Shown piece by piece: positions 53,222 through 64,000 of a DNA stretch of 64,000 bases. Made by a program: the position numbers and the translations under genes. Position 1 is the first letter of the stretch. The number at the start of each line of letters is the position of its first letter. The DNA comes from Buttiauxella sp. A111 (GTDB lineage Bacteria; Pseudomonadota; Gammaproteobacteria; Enterobacterales; Enterobacteriaceae): contig NZ_BJFN01000004.1 in the NCBI RefSeq assembly GCF_014189855.1, forward strand, positions 124,001 to 188,000, in the 5' to 3' direction. The notes beneath the pieces are model-generated. The model saw nothing but the letters and a program-made list of their open reading frames with translations, made no database searches and was not told the origin of the DNA.

Positions 53222-55307
<2,086 letters not shown>

Positions 55308-56252
55308 ATGAAGCTCAAGACCACCCTTCTGGCGTCAGCACTGATTTCCCTTACTACGCTGTCCGCACAGGCAGCAACGGAATTGACACCGGACCAAGCT
55401 GCTGCTCTTAAACCTTTTGATCGCATTACCATCACTGGCCGTTTTAACTCGATTGGTGAAGCGGTGAATTCCGTTTCTAAACGTGCGGATAAAATGGGTG
55501 CGGCATCTTTCTACGTGTTGGACACTAACGATACCGGCAGCAGCGGTAACTGGCGTGTGGTTGCAGACGTGTATCATACTGATGCCCCTAAAGCTGAGAA
55601 ACAGAATTACCGCGTAATCAATGGCGTGACTGAATTACCGAAAGACCAAGCATATGCTCTTGAGCCATTCGATACCGTGACAATCCAGGGTTTTTATCGC
55701 AGTCAGCCTGAAGTTAACGATGCCATTACGCGTGCCGCTAAACAAAAAGGTGCGGATTCGTACTTCATCGTGCGTCAAATCGACACCAACTCAGGCGGCA
55801 ACCAGCGCATTACTGCGTTCATCTATAAAAAAGATGCCAAGAAACGTGTACTGCAAAGCGCTGATGCGATCCCTGCTAACTCCGAAGCGGGTAAAGCAGC
55901 GTTGGCTGCGGGCGGCGCGGCAGCTGCAAACGTTGAGATCCCAGGTGTTGCAACAACCAGTACCCCTACTACTGATGTCGGTCGCTTCTTCGAAACGCAA
56001 ACCACTAAAGGTGGTCGTTACACTGTAACGCTGCCAGATGGCACAAAAATCGAAGAAGTGAATAAAGTGACTGCGGCGCAAATGGTTCCGTTTGATAGCG
56101 TGAAGTTCACGGGTCACTATAGCAGCAGCACTGAGGTGTCTTACCAGGTGGCTAAACGTGCCGCTAAGAAAGGCGCGAAGTACTACCACATCACCCGTCA
56201 ATGGGAAGAGCGTGGCGGTAACCTGACGATTAGCGCTGATTTGTATAAGTAA
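55308..56252 (+). CDS. ydgH: YdgH, periplasmic protein with three YhcN/BhsA (DUF1471) domains
   Basis: 314 residues from the ATG at 55308, the E. coli length. The signal peptide (MKLKTTLLASALISLTTLSA, cleaved after AQA) is followed by three related domains. Each opens with PFD-x-(V/I): LKPFDRITITGRF (about 38), LEPFDTVTIQGFY (about 122) and MVPFDSVKFTGHY (about 262). Each closes with an (A/S)-D/F-(V/L/I)-Y(H/K) strand. Family members affect envelope stress and biofilm; YdgH function is not established. A longer frame to 55194 would precede the signal peptide and is rejected. Confidence 0.95.
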   Translation: MKLKTTLLASALISLTTLSAQAATELTPDQAAALKPFDRITITGRFNSIGEAVNSVSKRADKMGAASFYVLDTNDTGSSGNWRVVADVYHTDAPKAEKQNYRVINGVTELPKDQAYALEPFDTVTIQGFYRSQPEVNDAITRAAKQKGADSYFIVRQIDTNSGGNQRITAFIYKKDAKKRVLQSADAIPANSEAGKAALAAGGAAAANVEIPGVATTSTPTTDVGRFFETQTTKGGRYTVTLPDGTKIEEVNKVTAAQMVPFDSVKFTGHYSSSTEVSYQVAKRAAKKGAKYYHITRQWEERGGNLTISADLYK

Positions 56253-56271
56253 GTTTTCACCTCGTTAAAAC

Positions 56272-56302
56272 TTTCAAAAAGGGCCAGTTGTGCCCTTTTT
56301 TT
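56272..56302 (+). terminator. Rho-independent terminator of ydgH
   Basis: AAAGGGC pairs with GCCCTTT across a short loop and is followed by TTTTTTA, 20 bases after the stop. Confidence 0.85.
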
Positions 56303-56445
56303 ATTTCCCCGCGTATTTTGTGGTTCATGCCATTGCAAGCAGCGCTTACACTCCGTAAAATCCCGCGCCTTAGTGTTACCCACCATTTTTATGCACAAAA
56401 GCATAATAATTATTCTGGCTCTATTTTGAATTTTACAGGACTGCA

Positions 56446-57828
56446 ATGGAAAAGAAGCTTGGCCTCGCTGCATTAACTGCATTGGTTTTGAGTTCAATGC
56501 TCGGTGCTGGTGTATTTAGCCTACCGCAAAACATGGCGAGCGTGGCGAGTCCGGCAGCGTTGCTGATCGGCTGGGCCATTACAGGTGCTGGGATTTTACT
56601 GCTGGCACTGGCCATGTTGGTGTTGACCCGTTTGCGACCCGATCTCGATGGCGGGATTTTTACTTATGCGCGCGAGGGCTTTGGTGAGCTGATCGGTTTC
56701 TTTTCGGCCTGGGGCTACTGGCTTTGTGCGGTCATCGCCAACGTTTCATATTTGGTTATCGTTTTCTCGGCGCTGAGTTTCTTCACTGACACACCAGAAT
56801 TGCGTCTGTTTGGCGATGGTAATACCTGGCAGTCGATAGTCGGTGCCTCAGTATTGTTGTGGATGGTGCACTTCCTGGTAATGCGTGGCGTGCAAACCGC
56901 TGCCAGCATCAACCTGGTCGCGACCCTTGCGAAACTTCTGCCGTTGGGCCTGTTTGTTGTACTGGCGGCGATGGCCTTTAAACTCTCGACCTTTAAGCTC
57001 GATTTCAGCGGGATTGCGCTGGGCGTTCCGGTTTGGGAACAGGTCAAAAACACCATGCTTATTACCCTGTGGGTCTTTATTGGTGTTGAAGGTGCCGTCG
57101 TAGTTTCTGCCCGCGCGCGCAATAAAAATGATGTAGGTCGTGCCACATTGCTGGCGGTCATTGCCGCATTATGCGTTTATCTGCTGGTGACGTTGCTTTC
57201 ACTGGGCGTCATTGCACGTCCAGAACTTGCCGGAATGCGTAATCCGTCAATGGCCGGTTTGATGGTTGAAATGATGGGGCCGTGGGGTGAAATCATTATC
57301 GCCGCTGGGCTGATTGTTTCAGTGTGCGGAGCCTACTTAAGCTGGACGATTATGGCAGCCGAAGTGCCTTTCCTGGCCGCCACCCACAAAGCTTTCCCGA
57401 AAATGTTTGCCCGTCAGAACAAAAACAATGCGCCATCCGCGTCCCTGTGGCTCACTAATATCAGCGTACAAATTTGCCTGGTGTTGATTTGGCTGACCGG
57501 GTCGGATTACAACACCCTGTTGACCATTGCTTCAGAAATGATTCTGGTGCCCTACTTCCTGGTCGGTGCCTATTTGCTGAAAATCGCAACTCGTCCGCTG
57601 CATAAAGCAATTGGTCTTGGTGCATGTATTTATGGCTTATGGTTGCTTTATGCATCTGGCCCCATGCATTTACTGCTTTCAGTGGTACTGTATGCGCCTG
57701 GTTTATTAGTCTTTATGTACACACGCAGTACACATACACATGATATTGGGCTGAATTTGAAAGAAAAATCAGTCATCGTCTTCATGCTGGTGGCTGCGTT
57801 TCCGGCGACGTGGATACTGGTGAAATAA
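56446..57828 (+). CDS. ydgI: YdgI, basic amino-acid antiporter (ArcD-like, APC family)
   Basis: 460 residues, the E. coli length, with about twelve membrane helices. The APC start motif is TALVLSSMLGAGVFSLPQNM. Other landmarks are WVFIGVEGAVVVSARARNKN and SWTIMAAEVPFLAATHKAFP. It is annotated in E. coli as a putative arginine:ornithine antiporter. No arginine deiminase genes are nearby, so the exchange partner is inferred. It lies between ydgH and folM, as in E. coli. Confidence 0.93.
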   Translation: MEKKLGLAALTALVLSSMLGAGVFSLPQNMASVASPAALLIGWAITGAGILLLALAMLVLTRLRPDLDGGIFTYAREGFGELIGFFSAWGYWLCAVIANVSYLVIVFSALSFFTDTPELRLFGDGNTWQSIVGASVLLWMVHFLVMRGVQTAASINLVATLAKLLPLGLFVVLAAMAFKLSTFKLDFSGIALGVPVWEQVKNTMLITLWVFIGVEGAVVVSARARNKNDVGRATLLAVIAALCVYLLVTLLSLGVIARPELAGMRNPSMAGLMVEMMGPWGEIIIAAGLIVSVCGAYLSWTIMAAEVPFLAATHKAFPKMFARQNKNNAPSASLWLTNISVQICLVLIWLTGSDYNTLLTIASEMILVPYFLVGAYLLKIATRPLHKAIGLGACIYGLWLLYASGPMHLLLSVVLYAPGLLVFMYTRSTHTHDIGLNLKEKSVIVFMLVAAFPATWILVK

Positions 57829-57871
57829 CTCGCTTCATCGCACAAAACAGGTCAGAAAACAGGAGCCGCCA

Positions 57872-58597
57872 ATGGGGATTGCATCATCCGCACGTCCAAT
57901 TTTAATTACCGGAGCGGGTAAACGAATTGGTCTGGCTTTAGCTCAGCACTTTCTGGCCCAACAGCAACCGGTGATTATCAGTTACCGCACGCGTTATGCG
58001 GCGGTAGATTCTCTTGAGCAAGCCGGTGCAGTGTGTTTGTACGGGGACTTCTCGAGCAATGACGGCATTGAGCAATTTGCTGATGCCGTGAAACAACATT
58101 GCAGCGGCCTGCGCGCAATCTTGCATAATGCCAGTGCCTGGCTTGCGGAATCACCGGATGTATCACCCGCTGCGACTCTGGCAGCAATGCTACAAATTCA
58201 TGTCCATGCTCCCTACCTGCTCAATCTTCACCTCGAATCTTTACTTCGCGGACAAGGTCATGCCAGTGCCGACATCATTCACTTCACCGATTATGTTGTT
58301 GAGCGCGGAAGCGACAAGCATATTGCCTATGCAGCCAGTAAAGCCGCGCTGGATAATCTGACCCGTTCCTTTGCCCGTAAGCTGGCACCTGAAGTTAAAG
58401 TGAACGCGATTGCACCCGCGATGATTATGTTCAACGAACATGACGATGCTCAATATCGCCAGAAAGCGCTCAACAAATCGTTGATGAAAATTGCCCCCGG
58501 TGAACAAGAAATTATTGCCCTGGTCGATTACCTGCTCAGTAGCCAATACGTCACCGGGCGAACACATGCTGTGGATGGTGGCCGCCCGCTTCGGTGA
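57872..58597 (+). CDS. folM: FolM, dihydromonapterin/dihydrofolate reductase
   Basis: 241 residues of the short-chain dehydrogenase family. The cofactor motif is TGAGKRIGLALAQHF, NAS lies in ILHNASAWLAE, and the catalytic tyrosine and lysine are in HIAYAASKAALDNLTRSFA. It uses NADPH to reduce dihydromonapterin and, weakly, dihydrofolate. CAGGAG precedes the ATG. In E. coli ydgC lies between folM and rstA; here only 74 bases separate them. Confidence 0.95.
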   Translation: MGIASSARPILITGAGKRIGLALAQHFLAQQQPVIISYRTRYAAVDSLEQAGAVCLYGDFSSNDGIEQFADAVKQHCSGLRAILHNASAWLAESPDVSPAATLAAMLQIHVHAPYLLNLHLESLLRGQGHASADIIHFTDYVVERGSDKHIAYAASKAALDNLTRSFARKLAPEVKVNAIAPAMIMFNEHDDAQYRQKALNKSLMKIAPGEQEIIALVDYLLSSQYVTGRTHAVDGGRPLR

Positions 58598-58671
58598 ATC
58601 TGTTTATCCACCATATATGGTGTTAACCGTGTAACCAGGGTATGTTTTCCTTTTGATTCGATGTGCTGGCC

Positions 58672-59400
58672 ATGAACAAAATCGTATACGTAGAAGACGA
58701 TCCGGAAGTAGGAGCGTTGATTGCCGCTTACCTCGGCAAACATGACATCGACGTTATTGTCGAAAGCCGGGGTGATCGCGCCGAAGCGACTATTGCGCAA
58801 CAGAATCCAGACCTCGTGCTGCTGGATGTGATGTTGCCAGGTAAAGATGGCATGACGTTGTGCCGTGATTTGCGTCCGCAGTGGGATGGCCCGATTGTCT
58901 TGCTCACCTCTCTCGACAGCGATATGAACCATATTTTGTCGCTTGAAATGGGGGCTAACGATTACATTCTTAAAACCACCCCGCCTGCTGTTTTGCTCGC
59001 TCGCCTACGTCTTCATCTGCGCCAGCGCGTCTCTGCGCAACTTACTGTCGAAAGCAGCACAAATGCGCTTAAACCTCACAAAGCAATGCGCTTTGGCACG
59101 TTGTGTATCGATCCGGTAAACCGTCAGGTCACGTTGGGTAGCGAAACCATTACGCTCTCAACCGCAGACTTCGATTTGTTGTGGGAACTTGCTACCCATG
59201 CGGGACAAATCATGGACCGCGATGCGTTGCTAAAAAACCTGCGCGGCGTGACCTATGACGGCTTAGATCGCAGCGTCGATGTCGCGATTTCCCGCTTGAG
59301 AAAAAAACTCTACGACAGCGCTACTGAGCCATTCAGAATCAAAACCGTGCGTAATAAAGGCTACCTTTTCGCCCCACATGCCTGGGAGAGTGAAGCGTAA
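58672..59400 (+). CDS. rstA: RstA, OmpR-family response regulator
   Basis: 242 residues from the ATG at 58672. Phospho-acceptor Asp52 is in LVLLDVMLPGKDG. The winged-helix DNA-binding domain ends LDRSVDVAISRLRKKLYDSA followed by RIKTVRNKGYLF. In Salmonella and E. coli RstAB is under PhoP control and RstA regulates acid-, iron- and biofilm-linked genes. Its kinase gene rstB normally follows at once. Here it is 2.8 kb away, beyond an inserted EIIC-EAL gene. Confidence 0.96.
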   Translation: MNKIVYVEDDPEVGALIAAYLGKHDIDVIVESRGDRAEATIAQQNPDLVLLDVMLPGKDGMTLCRDLRPQWDGPIVLLTSLDSDMNHILSLEMGANDYILKTTPPAVLLARLRLHLRQRVSAQLTVESSTNALKPHKAMRFGTLCIDPVNRQVTLGSETITLSTADFDLLWELATHAGQIMDRDALLKNLRGVTYDGLDRSVDVAISRLRKKLYDSATEPFRIKTVRNKGYLFAPHAWESEA

Positions 59401-59877
59401 ATTTCTCTATCGAGAAAATGCTTCAATTGTGCAGTCGTCGCCCCTTCAGTAAAGTACGCGTTTTCGGTGCCAGCCCATCGAATTCGCGTCCTGCATTTTT
59501 TATTACCTTAAGTGAACGTTTAATTAAGTCGTCTGCACTATAGAAACACTCGCTCTCGATATGATAGATTCCACTACCGATATATTTATTCTCACATCAC
59601 TTATTTAATATTTCATAAGAAGAGCAACTTTATTATTTCGATGTGTTTATTTTGTTATCGGTCTGTTTATTTACAACTTCCCAGACAATTCCATTGTTTA
59701 TACAACGCTATTATTTGTTGCAAGCATGTTGCTAATAACAATTAAACCAGAATTTTTTAATGCTTTATTATGGACATTATAAACTCAGCCAAATGTACAA
59801 AAAACAATTCAGCACCTCCGTGAATATTAAAATCACAGAGTTTTATAATTCAGTTATTTGCTTAAAAACAACCCTTA
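59401..59877. other. Intergenic region between rstA and the EIIC-EAL gene
   Basis: 477 bases, strongly AT-rich, without a supportable gene. AAATTTCTCTATCGAGAAA just after rstA forms a small dyad. The remainder probably holds the promoter of the fusion gene and is foreign in composition to rstA and rstB. Confidence 0.6.
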
Positions 59878-62007
59878 ATGAGCTTAATTGCTTTAGGTAA
59901 TTTCGTGATAAAAGAGTGGCTTTACAACAATCTGCTACGTCGTTTAAATAACAGTCAGATCAAGTTGTTAAACAATCGCTATGCTAATGCCATTATCGCC
60001 AGCACGATGGCAATCGTTCCTCTTTCGATTGTACGTGGGCTTGTGATTACCGCGTCGGTCATCTGTGACACGGCAGGATTCAACAGCGCAGCCGTTTGGT
60101 TCATGCAATTGCAGATCGGCTTCTTAGCCCTGGCACCGCTGGTGATGAATATCTATATCGCCGTACACTGGGCCGTGAGAAACCGTCTTTCCCAAATTTT
60201 CTGTATTGCACTGAGCATAAGTACCCTGATGATTTTCCGTCGCATACTCGATAATAATGCGCAGTTTTTCCTCGATATTAGTATTCCTATGGCGTTAGCC
60301 TCAGGAATCATCGGCAATGTATTGCAGGAGATTGTCAGTAAAAAACTGCTCAAAATCCGTCAATGGAATGATAACACTAACATCACTATTGTCTCTTTTT
60401 TCATCACACTGGGAATTATCGCTCTGTTTAGCAGCGTAATAAAATTAGGAGCGGAAATTTACGTCACCAATGTGATGAGCTTCTTTAGCCATATTTCGGT
60501 GTATTTTTACCCGACAGATTTTTTACATGGTATTTCGTATGTGCTGTTACGCAGTGTGCCATGGTTCTTTGGTTTGCACGGTTATTATCTATTTATGGAC
60601 ATTGATGTCGCTTTTACTGCAGCTGCAAAAGTTAACATTAGCGAATGGCATGCAGGACATAGCGCGCTCAATATTCTCAGCCCGGTGTTTTATGATATGT
60701 GGTGTAATTCCGGAGGTACCGGAAACACGCTAAGCCTGATCATTTGTATTTTAATGCAACCAAAGAGCCCGCACAGACGTCTACTGAGTATTGCCGCCCC
60801 CATGGCGTTATTTAATATCAATGAGCCACTGATTTTTGGCTTCCCGATTGTACTCAACCCCGTGATGATAATTCCGTTTGTCCTGACACCATTAACGGCC
60901 TATCTGGTGGCCTACGGCGCGACCTATATGGATCTCATTCCACGAATTTCCGAAATCGTCAGTTGGTCAACTCCTGGACCGCTTAAAGTGTGGTTAGCCA
61001 GCGGCCATTCAGCGAGTGCGTTAATAGTGTATCTACTGCTGCTCGTCCTTGGGGTCATCATTTATCACCCATTCGTCAAAAGCTCGTTAAAACAATCCGT
61101 CGCTGAAAACACCAATCTGGATTTACTGACCGGCGAGATGAAAGTCAATCAGCCGGCTGACTTTGAAATGGTGCCCAATTACAGCCATGTCGTTGAGCAA
61201 AACAACTACATCGAGGCGCAGCGGCAAATTGAGAAGTTGCAAAGAGACGGGCAGTTCATCCTCTACTTCCAGCCCCAGGTGCGTATTGCAGACAGCAAAA
61301 TAGTCGCTCTTGAGGTATTGATACGCCACCAAAGCGACGCAGGAAAAATCACTCCACCGGTGTTCCTGAAATATTATGAGCAGACCGGCATGATGCCGGA
61401 GATTGATTTCTGGGTGATGGAACATGCACTGGATTATGTCCGCGAGCATATGTCTGACTGCGAGAAGATGACGCTCTCAGTGAATATTTCACCTCAGACG
61501 CTGATCGACTACCGGCTTCCGAACATGGTACGTAAGGTGATGGCCACCCCTCTCCCGTCCGGGTGGAATCTGGAATTTGAAATAACCGAGTCACAAAAAG
61601 TGCAGGATCCGGTACGCGTCGCTGAAGTTCTGGAAAAACTGCGCGATCTAGGCATCAAGATTGCGCTGGATGACTTTGGTTCCGGATACTCAACGTTGCA
61701 TTATCTGACACGCTACCCGCTGGATAAAATTAAACTCGATCGTTCTATGGTTCTGGGTTTAGCCAAACCCGATGGATTTAACTTCCTGCAGCAGGTCGTG
61801 AAGCTATGCACGGTGATTCAGTGTGAAATTTTAATTGAGGGTGTCGAAACTCAGCAAGAATTAGAACTGGTGCAAAAAGCAGGAATTGAGCTGTGCCAGG
61901 GCTTTTTCTACTATCGGCCATTACCGGGAGACGTGGTTTACCCACTCCTGAAGGAACAACGACAGCAAGCAAGTCATGCCCATCAACAGGTTGCTGCAAC
62001 GGTATAG
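59878..62007 (+). CDS. PTS EIIC-like membrane domain fused to an EAL cyclic-di-GMP phosphodiesterase
   Basis: 709 residues. Residues 1-400 form a cellobiose/chitobiose-type EIIC with about ten helices, including GHSALNILSPVFYDMWCNSG (260-279) and the substrate motif FNINEPLIFGFPIVLNP (312-328). Residues about 445-700 form an EAL domain whose catalytic set is complete. It has Glu479 in EVLIR (the EAL motif as EVL), Asn536 in VNISPQ, the EITES glutamate near 571, Asp598-Asp599 in DDFGSGYS, Lys619, Glu654 in EGVET and Gln674 in QGFFYYRP. No EIIA or EIIB domain is attached. It should hydrolyse cyclic-di-GMP at the inner membrane, perhaps controlled by a sugar bound to the EIIC part. No ribosome site is strong at the first ATG. 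It splits the rstA-rstB pair. Confidence 0.88.
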   Translation: MSLIALGNFVIKEWLYNNLLRRLNNSQIKLLNNRYANAIIASTMAIVPLSIVRGLVITASVICDTAGFNSAAVWFMQLQIGFLALAPLVMNIYIAVHWAVRNRLSQIFCIALSISTLMIFRRILDNNAQFFLDISIPMALASGIIGNVLQEIVSKKLLKIRQWNDNTNITIVSFFITLGIIALFSSVIKLGAEIYVTNVMSFFSHISVYFYPTDFLHGISYVLLRSVPWFFGLHGYYLFMDIDVAFTAAAKVNISEWHAGHSALNILSPVFYDMWCNSGGTGNTLSLIICILMQPKSPHRRLLSIAAPMALFNINEPLIFGFPIVLNPVMIIPFVLTPLTAYLVAYGATYMDLIPRISEIVSWSTPGPLKVWLASGHSASALIVYLLLLVLGVIIYHPFVKSSLKQSVAENTNLDLLTGEMKVNQPADFEMVPNYSHVVEQNNYIEAQRQIEKLQRDGQFILYFQPQVRIADSKIVALEVLIRHQSDAGKITPPVFLKYYEQTGMMPEIDFWVMEHALDYVREHMSDCEKMTLSVNISPQTLIDYRLPNMVRKVMATPLPSGWNLEFEITESQKVQDPVRVAEVLEKLRDLGIKIALDDFGSGYSTLHYLTRYPLDKIKLDRSMVLGLAKPDGFNFLQQVVKLCTVIQCEILIEGVETQQELELVQKAGIELCQGFFYYRPLPGDVVYPLLKEQRQQASHAHQQVAATV

Positions 62008-62191
62008 CGCCCTCATTTCTGCACGGATACTCCAGAGTTCTGCACGCCAGATATTGTAAGCAGGGGCAAACCCTGCTTACATAGCCAGCCAGATGGGGCA
62101 TGAAATTTCTAAAACGACGCCACTCCTGTCCCCATAGCGCGCCTGGACTCCAGGAGGCTGCCCCAACCAACTGATAAGCCGGTGATTTCCG

Positions 62192-63508
62192 TTGAAAAAG
62201 TTATTTATTCAGTTCTATCTTTTGCTGTTCGTCTGCTTCCTGGTGATGACCATGCTGGTTGGCCTGGTATACAAATTCACCGCTGAGCGTGCTGGCCGCC
62301 AGTCGCTGGATGATTTGATGAAGAGCTCGCTGTATTTGATGCGCAGCGAGTTGCGTGAAATCCCGCCTCGCGACTGGAACCGCACTATCAAAGATCTCGA
62401 CCTTAACCTGTCCTTTAAACTCCATATCGAGCCAATGGACAAGTTCAAACTTGATGAGATAACAATGCGTCATCTGCGAGAAGGCGAAATTGTCGCCCTC
62501 GACGACGAATACACCTTTATTCAGCGTATCCCCCGCAGCCATTATGTTCTTGCCGTCGGCCCGATTCCCTATCTCTTTTTCTTGCATCAAATGCGCTTGC
62601 TGGATGTGGCACTGATGGCATTTATTGCGATCTCGCTCGCCTTCCCGGTTTTTATTTGGATGCGGCCCCATTGGCAGGACATGCTGAAACTGGAAACAGC
62701 GGCGCAAAGATTAGGTAAAGGGCATCTTGATGAGCGTATCCATTTCGACAGCGCTTCAAGTTTTGAGCGTTTAGGTGTCGCATTCAACCAGATGGCAGAC
62801 AGCATCAACGCACAAATTGCCAGTAAGAAGATGCTGATTGACGGAATTGCGCATGAACTGCGAACACCACTGGTGCGCCTGCGTTATCGCCTTGAGATGA
62901 GCGACAACCTGACGGATGCGGAATCATTGGCGCTAAACCGTGATATTGGCCAACTGGAAGCCTTGATTGAAGAGCTGCTGACTTACGCGCGCCTCGACCG
63001 CCCGCAAACGGAGTTGCAACTGGCAAGTGTGGATGTTCCACGCTGGCTTGATGAGCACATTGCTGATGTCAGAATCATTCATCCTCAGCTCGATATTCAA
63101 CTGGATATTCCATCAGCAGGTGATTTTGGTTTAATCGATCTGCGCCTGATGGAGCGTGTCACCGATAATCTGGTCAATAACGCGCTGCGTTACAGTAATG
63201 AGAAATTGCGAATCAGTCTGTGGCTCGACAACAGAACCGCAATTTTACAAGTTGAGGACGATGGTCCAGGTATTCCAGCAGAAGAACGCGAACGGGTATT
63301 TGAACCGTTTGTTCGCCTTGACCCCAGCCGCGACCGCGCCACGGGTGGATGCGGTCTAGGACTTGCGATCGTTCATTCTGTCGCAACGGCGATGGAAGGT
63401 TCGGTGGGCGTAGACAGCGGTGCACTGGGCGGCGCCCGCTTCCGCTTTAGCTGGCCAATCAAAACGGAATCCCCTTTAGCGTTAGCCTCCGTAACGCCGC
63501 GCCGCTAA
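62192..63508 (+). CDS. rstB: RstB, sensor histidine kinase
   Basis: 438 residues. Two membrane helices (about 5-27 and 136-157) flank a periplasmic domain. HAMP follows, then the H box DGIAHELRTPLVRLRYRLEM with His221, the N box VTDNLVNNALRYS and glycine boxes DDGPGIPAEER and GGCGLGLAIVHS. The N-terminus MKKLFIQFYLLLFVCFLVMT is nearly identical to E. coli RstB and begins at a TTG at 62192 with only a weak ribosome site. The gene has 184 bases of its own leader, including a GTAAGCAGGG/CCCTGCTTAC hairpin at 62056-62080, so it no longer depends on rstA translation. Confidence 0.95.
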   Translation: MKKLFIQFYLLLFVCFLVMTMLVGLVYKFTAERAGRQSLDDLMKSSLYLMRSELREIPPRDWNRTIKDLDLNLSFKLHIEPMDKFKLDEITMRHLREGEIVALDDEYTFIQRIPRSHYVLAVGPIPYLFFLHQMRLLDVALMAFIAISLAFPVFIWMRPHWQDMLKLETAAQRLGKGHLDERIHFDSASSFERLGVAFNQMADSINAQIASKKMLIDGIAHELRTPLVRLRYRLEMSDNLTDAESLALNRDIGQLEALIEELLTYARLDRPQTELQLASVDVPRWLDEHIADVRIIHPQLDIQLDIPSAGDFGLIDLRLMERVTDNLVNNALRYSNEKLRISLWLDNRTAILQVEDDGPGIPAEERERVFEPFVRLDPSRDRATGGCGLGLAIVHSVATAMEGSVGVDSGALGGARFRFSWPIKTESPLALASVTPRR

Positions 63509-63579
63509 AAATCATGTTTCCCTGCCAGGCCATCGAAACGACGATGGTCAGGTTCATCTCCCTGTGTTATAAATCCATA

Positions 63580-63595
63580 AGTATGTTGTAACTAA
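63580..63595 (+). other. TerB replication terminator site
   Basis: AGTATGTTGTAACTAA is the Tus-binding core as found in E. coli TerB. It lies 11 bases before the tus start, the same place as in E. coli, where Tus bound to TerB both arrests forks and represses tus. It shows that this window lies in the terminus region. Confidence 0.95.
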
Positions 63596-63606
63596 TGAGT
63601 GGCAAA

Positions 63607-64000
63607 ATGGCAAAATATGATTTGATTGAACGCCTGAACAGCACCTTCCGCGAGCTTGAGCACGACTTACATCAACTTCGTGAGCAACTCGATAGTTACA
63701 GATTGTTGGTGGGACGTGTGTTCCCCTTACCCACCGTGGATAAAGGGAAGGAACATGATGCCGTCACGAAAATAGAAGTGACTCAATTACTGGGGCACGT
63801 GGCACATCAGTCTACCCTTTCCCATTTTACGCGCTTGTTCATCCAGCAACAGTCGGAGAAAATCAGCAGCAAAGCCGCTGTACGCTTGCCTGGCGCCGTT
63901 TGTTATCAGGTCGATGAGAGAGAACGCGAACAAACACTGGCACTGATTGAACGCATCAATCAGCGTAAACAGGCGTTTGAAAACATTGTCAGTGTGGAAT
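63607..64000 (+). CDS. tus: Tus, replication terminus-binding protein (partial, C-terminus outside window)
   Basis: 131 codons from the ATG at 63607 to the window edge. The protein begins MAKYDLIERLNSTFRELEHD and contains LFIQQQSEKISSKAAVRLPG and VCYQVDE, clearly Tus (309 residues in E. coli). Tus binds Ter sites as a monomer and blocks DnaB helicase from one side. About 180 residues lie outside the window, so DNA-contact residues in the C-terminal half cannot be checked. Confidence 0.96.
   Translation, partial: MAKYDLIERLNSTFRELEHDLHQLREQLDSYRLLVGRVFPLPTVDKGKEHDAVTKIEVTQLLGHVAHQSTLSHFTRLFIQQQSEKISSKAAVRLPGAVCYQVDEREREQTLALIERINQRKQAFENIVSVE

Follow-up and report, generated by a model that had tools for sequence, protein, structure and literature searches.

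A 64-kb stretch of the genome of Buttiauxella sp. A111 (64,000 nucleotides, hereafter the window) carries a gene whose product joins a membrane permease domain of the phosphotransferase system (PTS), EIIC, to a C-terminal EAL domain. We propose that the EIIC part senses a sugar and thereby controls the EAL enzyme, so that a former PTS permease would serve as the sensor of a membrane c-di-GMP phosphodiesterase, and consider this proposal somewhat likelier to be right than wrong. A receptor is favoured over a permease because most of the fusion-bearing genomes lack EIIA and EIIB proteins of the lactose/cellobiose (Lac/Cel) type, because a loop motif of free EIICs has been lost and because the glutamate of the sugar pocket has been kept.

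The open reading frame occupies positions 59878-62007 of the plus strand and comprises 709 codons without internal stops; it is one intact gene in a host genome of 4.89 Mb. Residues are numbered throughout from the ATG at 59878. Comparison of the start regions indicated that the GTG at 59905 is probably the true start, giving a gene of 59905-62007 (plus strand) and a product of 700 aa instead of 709 aa. This GTG is preferred because in aligned orthologs the sequence AGGTrATTTyGTG is kept in 9/9, whereas the ATG at 59878 is present in only 5/9. In two further genomes (L229 and L230) the earliest start codon in frame is the GTG equivalent to 59905.

A Pfam search at E≤0.001 detected only two domains in the protein: PTS_EIIC (residues 44-338), with 61.3 bits against a cut-off of 30.7, and EAL (PF00563; residues 450-681), with 204.9 bits against a cut-off of 31.3. 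No EIIA or EIIB domain was found within the protein at the same threshold, which bears out the original prediction on this point. Against TIGR00410, the lactose/cellobiose EIIC family, the protein scored 148.3 bits, below the curated cut-off of 236. Combining Pfam and NCBIfam matches with alignment to, and structural matching with, bcChbC (3QNQ), we placed the EIIC domain, of cellobiose/lactose type, at residues ~34-405 (59977-61092, plus strand). The EAL domain spans residues ~441-690 (61198-61947, plus strand) according to Pfam, alignment and structure matching, and the linker between them, residues 406-440 (61093-61197, plus strand), is the least constrained part by both model pLDDT and dN/dS. 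With two Pfam domains above cut-off and the predicted folds described below, the fusion of EIIC and EAL in one frame is real. A chance fusion is excluded because full-length relatives are found in all 12 Buttiauxella genomes (host included, orthologs at 79-100% identity) and because both domains appear to be under purifying selection. Median dN/dS within the genus was 0.044 for EIIC, 0.056 for EAL and 0.128 for the linker; with dS saturated, these ratios are only approximate, but as such they suggest that the two domains are about equally constrained and the linker less so.

The structure was predicted from 47 sequences, which replaced an earlier model from 12 sequences that was dropped as too weak in the pocket (pLDDT <50 at residues 317-330). 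The 47-sequence model has a mean pLDDT of 85.8. The mutual placement of the EIIC and EAL domains in it is unreliable, because pTM is 0.59 and residues 411-435 fall under pLDDT 50. The EIIC part of this model matched bcChbC 3QNQ with Z 27.6 and an rmsd of 8.8 over 328 residues (VIA-align); the Foldseek TM-score was 0.49 by target length. The high rmsd could reflect a different arrangement of the EIIC halves in the two structures. The modelled EAL part matched solved EAL domains with Z up to 28.4 (VIA-align), in keeping with an EAL fold.

Mapping of the EIIC binding residues, suggested together with the original prediction, placed H234 (60577-60579, plus strand) and E316 at the positions of bcChbC H250 and E334, which we take to be sugar-site residues. 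E316 lies in the predicted NEPLIFG motif, which is indeed present at residues 315-321 (60820-60840, plus strand). Among 43 aligned fusions, the window protein included, position 316 is E in 42 and D in one; it is E in all 26 members of a second set. Of these 26, 24 are new, L045 and L052 being the same genes as L053 and L059 of the first set. G279, G280, G282, N313 and N327 are kept in 43/43 fusions that otherwise diverge widely; in the second set G232 is retained in 24/26, and so is N313. Position 234 varies: the counts of H and N are 23 and 20 among the 43 fusions, 22 and 4 in the second set, and 15 and 2 among 17 free EIICs. Judged by this H/N split, the pocket is not uniform across the fusions. 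The choice of H or N showed no association with the presence of EIIA (27 rows, Fisher p 0.12). One diverged Buttiauxella copy (L057:6067-8151) combines N at 234 with D at 316. The proline of NEP, which is kept in 18/43 fusions, and the sequence PWTxP were considered as signatures of a receptor and dropped, as bcChbC itself has NEM and VTWTTP.

These data make it unlikely that the EIIC part is an inert anchor, which would only position and dimerise EAL at the membrane, bind no ligand and leave activity to be set by protein level. Such an anchor would fit the asparagine found at position 234 in nearly half of the first set, the frequent loss of the NEP proline and the flexible linker of low model confidence. 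However, a mere anchor should lose its pocket residues, and the invariant glycines and asparagines and the near-invariant E316 have been retained; in addition, the two domains are under similar constraint in Buttiauxella.

Alignment of the 43 fusions with the 17 free EIICs revealed a difference in the loop between TM4 and TM5 (residues 153-173; 60334-60396, plus strand), which is probably cytoplasmic, as suggested by nearby positive residues. The motif VPxx[VI]xxS[FI]xxxxP precedes TM5 in 17/17 free EIICs and in 0/43 fusions. The pattern was composed after this alignment had been viewed, and was afterwards tested on further sequences, where it was found in 29/29 free EIICs and 0/26 fusions; the 29 are high-scoring Enterobacteriaceae loci, by score many of them perhaps orthologs of one permease, and do not amount to 29 independent trials. 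bcChbC carries the motif, and a relaxed form of it is present in 10/43 fusions. Likewise, a proline at position 209 occurs in 17/17 free EIICs and 0/43 fusions. Out of 40 columns common to at least 15 of the 17 free EIICs, 28 are kept by the window protein and 21 by at least 80% of the 43 fusions, the latter mostly in the sugar-binding half. The EIIC had been described as a complete cellobiose-type channel; this stands for its fold and pocket but not for the loop, where the motif of all examined free EIICs is missing. It is a guess that the lost motif serves EIIB docking or transport.

Potential phosphotransfer partners were counted in 40 fusion-bearing genomes, each at least 90% complete (the host and 39 of other genera); the count covers fusion-bearing genomes only. 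Lac/Cel EIIA was present in 12 of them and absent from 28. The Lac/Cel EIIB model matched in 13 (weakly in G417) and found nothing in 27. The host itself encodes two EIIA and four EIIB proteins of Lac/Cel type, and by coordinates each of the four EIIBs is no more than about 3 kb away from a free EIIC. For three host free EIICs, at G000 C1:326131, C2:230218 and C2:508093, the contig that carries them gave no match to Lac/Cel EIIB. A search of the 64-kb window for homologues of the host EIIAs and EIIBs detected none at E≤0.01. When 43 stretches around fusion genes were searched with 13 host EIIA/EIIB query frames at the same threshold, at which very distant homologues could escape, the sole match was an EIIB-EIIA pair in C. 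difficile, about 7 kb from the fusion. The free-permease search (E≤1e-60) also covered 8 fusion genomes other than the host, and in 7 of them it found no free EIIC belonging to this family. The search for a free EIIB partner, which had been recommended, thus gave four Lac/Cel EIIBs in the host genome but none in the window, and more than half of the fusion genomes had no match to the EIIB model.

A working permease that imports sugar with borrowed EIIB and EIIA, its EAL domain responding to transport or to whether the partner EIIB is phosphorylated, is an improbable alternative, a little more so than the anchor. The host has the proteins to lend, H234, E316 and NEP are all present in the window protein, and EIIA occurs in a minority of the fusion genomes. 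Against this, most fusion genomes are without EIIA, the host EIIBs are situated close to free EIICs, the loop motif is missing from every fusion examined, and the score against the lactose/cellobiose EIIC family is below its cut-off. Because the host encodes Lac/Cel EIIA and EIIB, its own copy may still borrow phosphotransfer. The proposal that a transporter domain has been reused as a sugar receptor thus agrees with the scarcity of EIIA and EIIB in fusion genomes and, C. difficile apart, around fusion genes, with the lost motif and with the retained pocket and EAL residues; the Lac/Cel set of the host, the H/N split of the pocket and the lac-like neighbours of some paralogs (below) sit badly with it.

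The EAL domain contains every catalytic residue, as had been stated. The eight positions, E479, N536, E568, D598, D599, K619, E654 and Q674, are presumably the metal- and substrate-binding residues and the general base known from the EAL literature. They are invariant in 40/40 aligned fusions of the first set and in 26/26 of the second. This suggests that the fusion is a candidate c-di-GMP phosphodiesterase. The least probable of the alternatives, and a distinctly doubtful one, is a receptor for a ligand other than free sugar (e.g. a cell-wall glycan fragment or EIIB itself), for which solute-binding domains encoded next to some relatives leave room, or a catalytically silent c-di-GMP effector, against which the catalytic positions are kept in 66/66 rows, some rows being the identical gene or close relatives.

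If the EIIC part does sense a sugar, its ligand would most likely be a beta-linked disaccharide of the cellobiose, chitobiose or lactose type, presumably reached from the periplasm. Binding would move the sugar-binding half, and the movement would pass through the C-terminal helix and the linker to the cytoplasmic EAL domain, whose dimer state or activity would change. A sugar outside the cell could in this way alter the level of c-di-GMP inside, in one direction or the other, by way of the predicted hydrolysis, and the EIIC would no longer take part in phosphotransfer. c-di-GMP is a signalling molecule governing swimming and biofilm formation. Sugar receptors derived from PTS permeases would thus tie extracellular carbohydrate to the switch between motile and sessile life without a phosphorelay. 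A wider proposal, which we put forward tentatively and regard as slightly more likely to fail than to hold, is that the fusions represent a lineage of PTS permeases that stands fully outside the phosphotransferase system: the pocket and perhaps the elevator movement are kept, the loop motif is lost, the hosts are mostly without Lac/Cel EIIA and EIIB, and the domain is wired directly to c-di-GMP hydrolysis. Yeast Snf3 and Rgt2 are transporter-like glucose sensors, and such a lineage would be their bacterial counterpart. The signature of a kept pocket, a lost loop motif and hosts mostly lacking Lac/Cel EIIA and EIIB may sort receptor-like from transporter-like EIICs, and it makes the receptor idea testable by a few point changes.

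The analysis of the distribution of fusions showed that they are not confined to Buttiauxella. In a sample of the order, fusions were found in at least 43 of 394 genomes and 12 of 114 genera (E≤1e-75 over both domains), a lower bound, as up to two candidates were scored per genome. A sample of the family gave matches in 4/295 genomes at E≤1e-58, all of them Buttiauxella; up to three candidates were scored per genome, and weak fusions could be missed. Another scan yielded 6/392 genomes at E≤1e-90, from one genus only. Relatives among the matches listed include Photobacterium and a Clostridiales Family XIII MAG, and further named relatives come from Photobacterium, Vibrio, Pseudoalteromonas, Acetoanaerobium and C. 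difficile records. The statement that such fusions occur in some Enterobacterales is accordingly correct for the broad order of GTDB, but among the sampled Enterobacteriaceae only Buttiauxella has them. In a tree of the 43 fusion EIICs and the 17 free ones, the fusions form one side of a branch with support 94/95, recovered in 93% of bootstrap trees. A single origin of the fusions is compatible with this tree, in which the sample of free EIICs is small (n=17).

Extra full-length copies at 38-48% identity are present in 8 of the 12 Buttiauxella genomes. Genes for MASE1-EAL or CSS-EAL type proteins lie near the paralogs L053 and L060, and GGDEF or EAL genes adjoin some relatives, as do the solute-binding domains mentioned above. 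In L054, L058, L061, L062, L063 and L064 three genes come after the Buttiauxella paralog; those of L054 encode a GGDEF-EAL protein and two SBP_bac_3 proteins. The paralogs of L054, L061 and L064 adjoin genes that by eye resemble lacI-lacZ-lacY, an arrangement seen nowhere else among the loci listed; judged by eye, this ties some paralogs to sugar uptake. The paralogs L055 and L056 share one 124-kb contig with transposase-like genes (by eye), perhaps a plasmid. In G437 the fusion (L227:6855-8894) lies between rpsQ-like and rplN-like ribosomal protein genes, named by eye, on the opposite strand.

The fusion resembles bcChbC and the lactose/cellobiose EIICs (ChbC/CelB) in its fold, in the counterparts of H250 and E334 and in the NINE, GGxG and NP motifs. 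It differs from the free members in having a C-terminal EAL domain, in lacking the loop motif and EIIA/EIIB genes alongside, and in falling below the TIGR00410 cut-off. With MASE1-EAL and CSS-EAL phosphodiesterases it shares the plan of a membrane or periplasmic sensor joined to EAL; unlike MASE1, CSS, MHYT and Cache sensors, its sensor has the fold of a PTS permease. The nearest worked-out case found is PdeS (VC1710) of Vibrio cholerae: in the available portion of PMC6877527, EIIA-Glc binds PdeS and the phosphorylation of EIIA-Glc matters. As proposed for the fusion, a PTS component and the availability of sugar there control a c-di-GMP phosphodiesterase. The PTS component of PdeS is the separate protein EIIA-Glc, whereas here it is a fused EIIC with nothing pointing to phosphorylation. 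The architecture itself is already catalogued in the portion available of PMC8846402, which counts PTS_EIIC among the domains joined to c-di-GMP enzymes, terms it rare and describes EIIA_1 and EIIC as phosphoreceiver domains. The domain pairing is the same, but our data lend no support to phosphorylation of the fusion EIIC. No described function was found in the open-licence literature for any EIIC-EAL protein, in agreement with the original prediction; the available portions of PMC10513181, PMC2453333, PMC10333796, PMC9286219 and PMC13304067 hold nothing on EIIC-EAL function. Salmonella STM0343, considered as a possible EIIC-EAL relative, was not confirmed as such: PMC11737180, PMC3229569 and PMC4219756, in the portions available, treat it as an EAL protein, and the main text available for PMC11737180 is without the words 'PTS', 'EIIC' and 'transmembrane'.

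The gene order at the locus is rstA - fusion - rstB - tus. Directly upstream is the response regulator gene rstA (58663-59400, plus strand; NF007977, 468.2 bits, cut-off 330) and directly downstream the sensor kinase gene rstB (62192-63508, plus strand, TTG start; NF007898, 783.8 bits, cut-off 478). The spacer between fusion and rstB can form an 11-bp hairpin without a T-run (62055-62081, plus strand), and the whole spacer folds not clearly better than its shuffles (z -1.46). No site with up to 3 mismatches to the RstA box was found between rstA and the fusion, and no Rfam RNA reached gathering score in positions 54000-64000. The number of promoter-like sites fell short of that in shuffled sequence (3 vs 7.3), and that of terminator-like sites was about equal (5 vs 3.5).

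The fusion lies between rstA and rstB in 9/12 Buttiauxella genomes. In G001 and G006 the ortholog is at another site and rstA adjoins rstB; a gap of 3 bp separates these two genes in the E. coli genome compared. In B. warmboldiae (G011, L230) the order is folM-fusion-tus, rstA is absent from the 15-kb stretch and rstB was not found genome-wide at E≤1e-100. Dependence of the fusion on RstAB was rejected, since B. warmboldiae keeps the fusion at a locus that lacks rstA and in a genome where the search found no rstB. The start codon of rstB is TTG in 9/9 genomes with the fusion between rstA and rstB, and ATG in the two in which these genes are adjacent.
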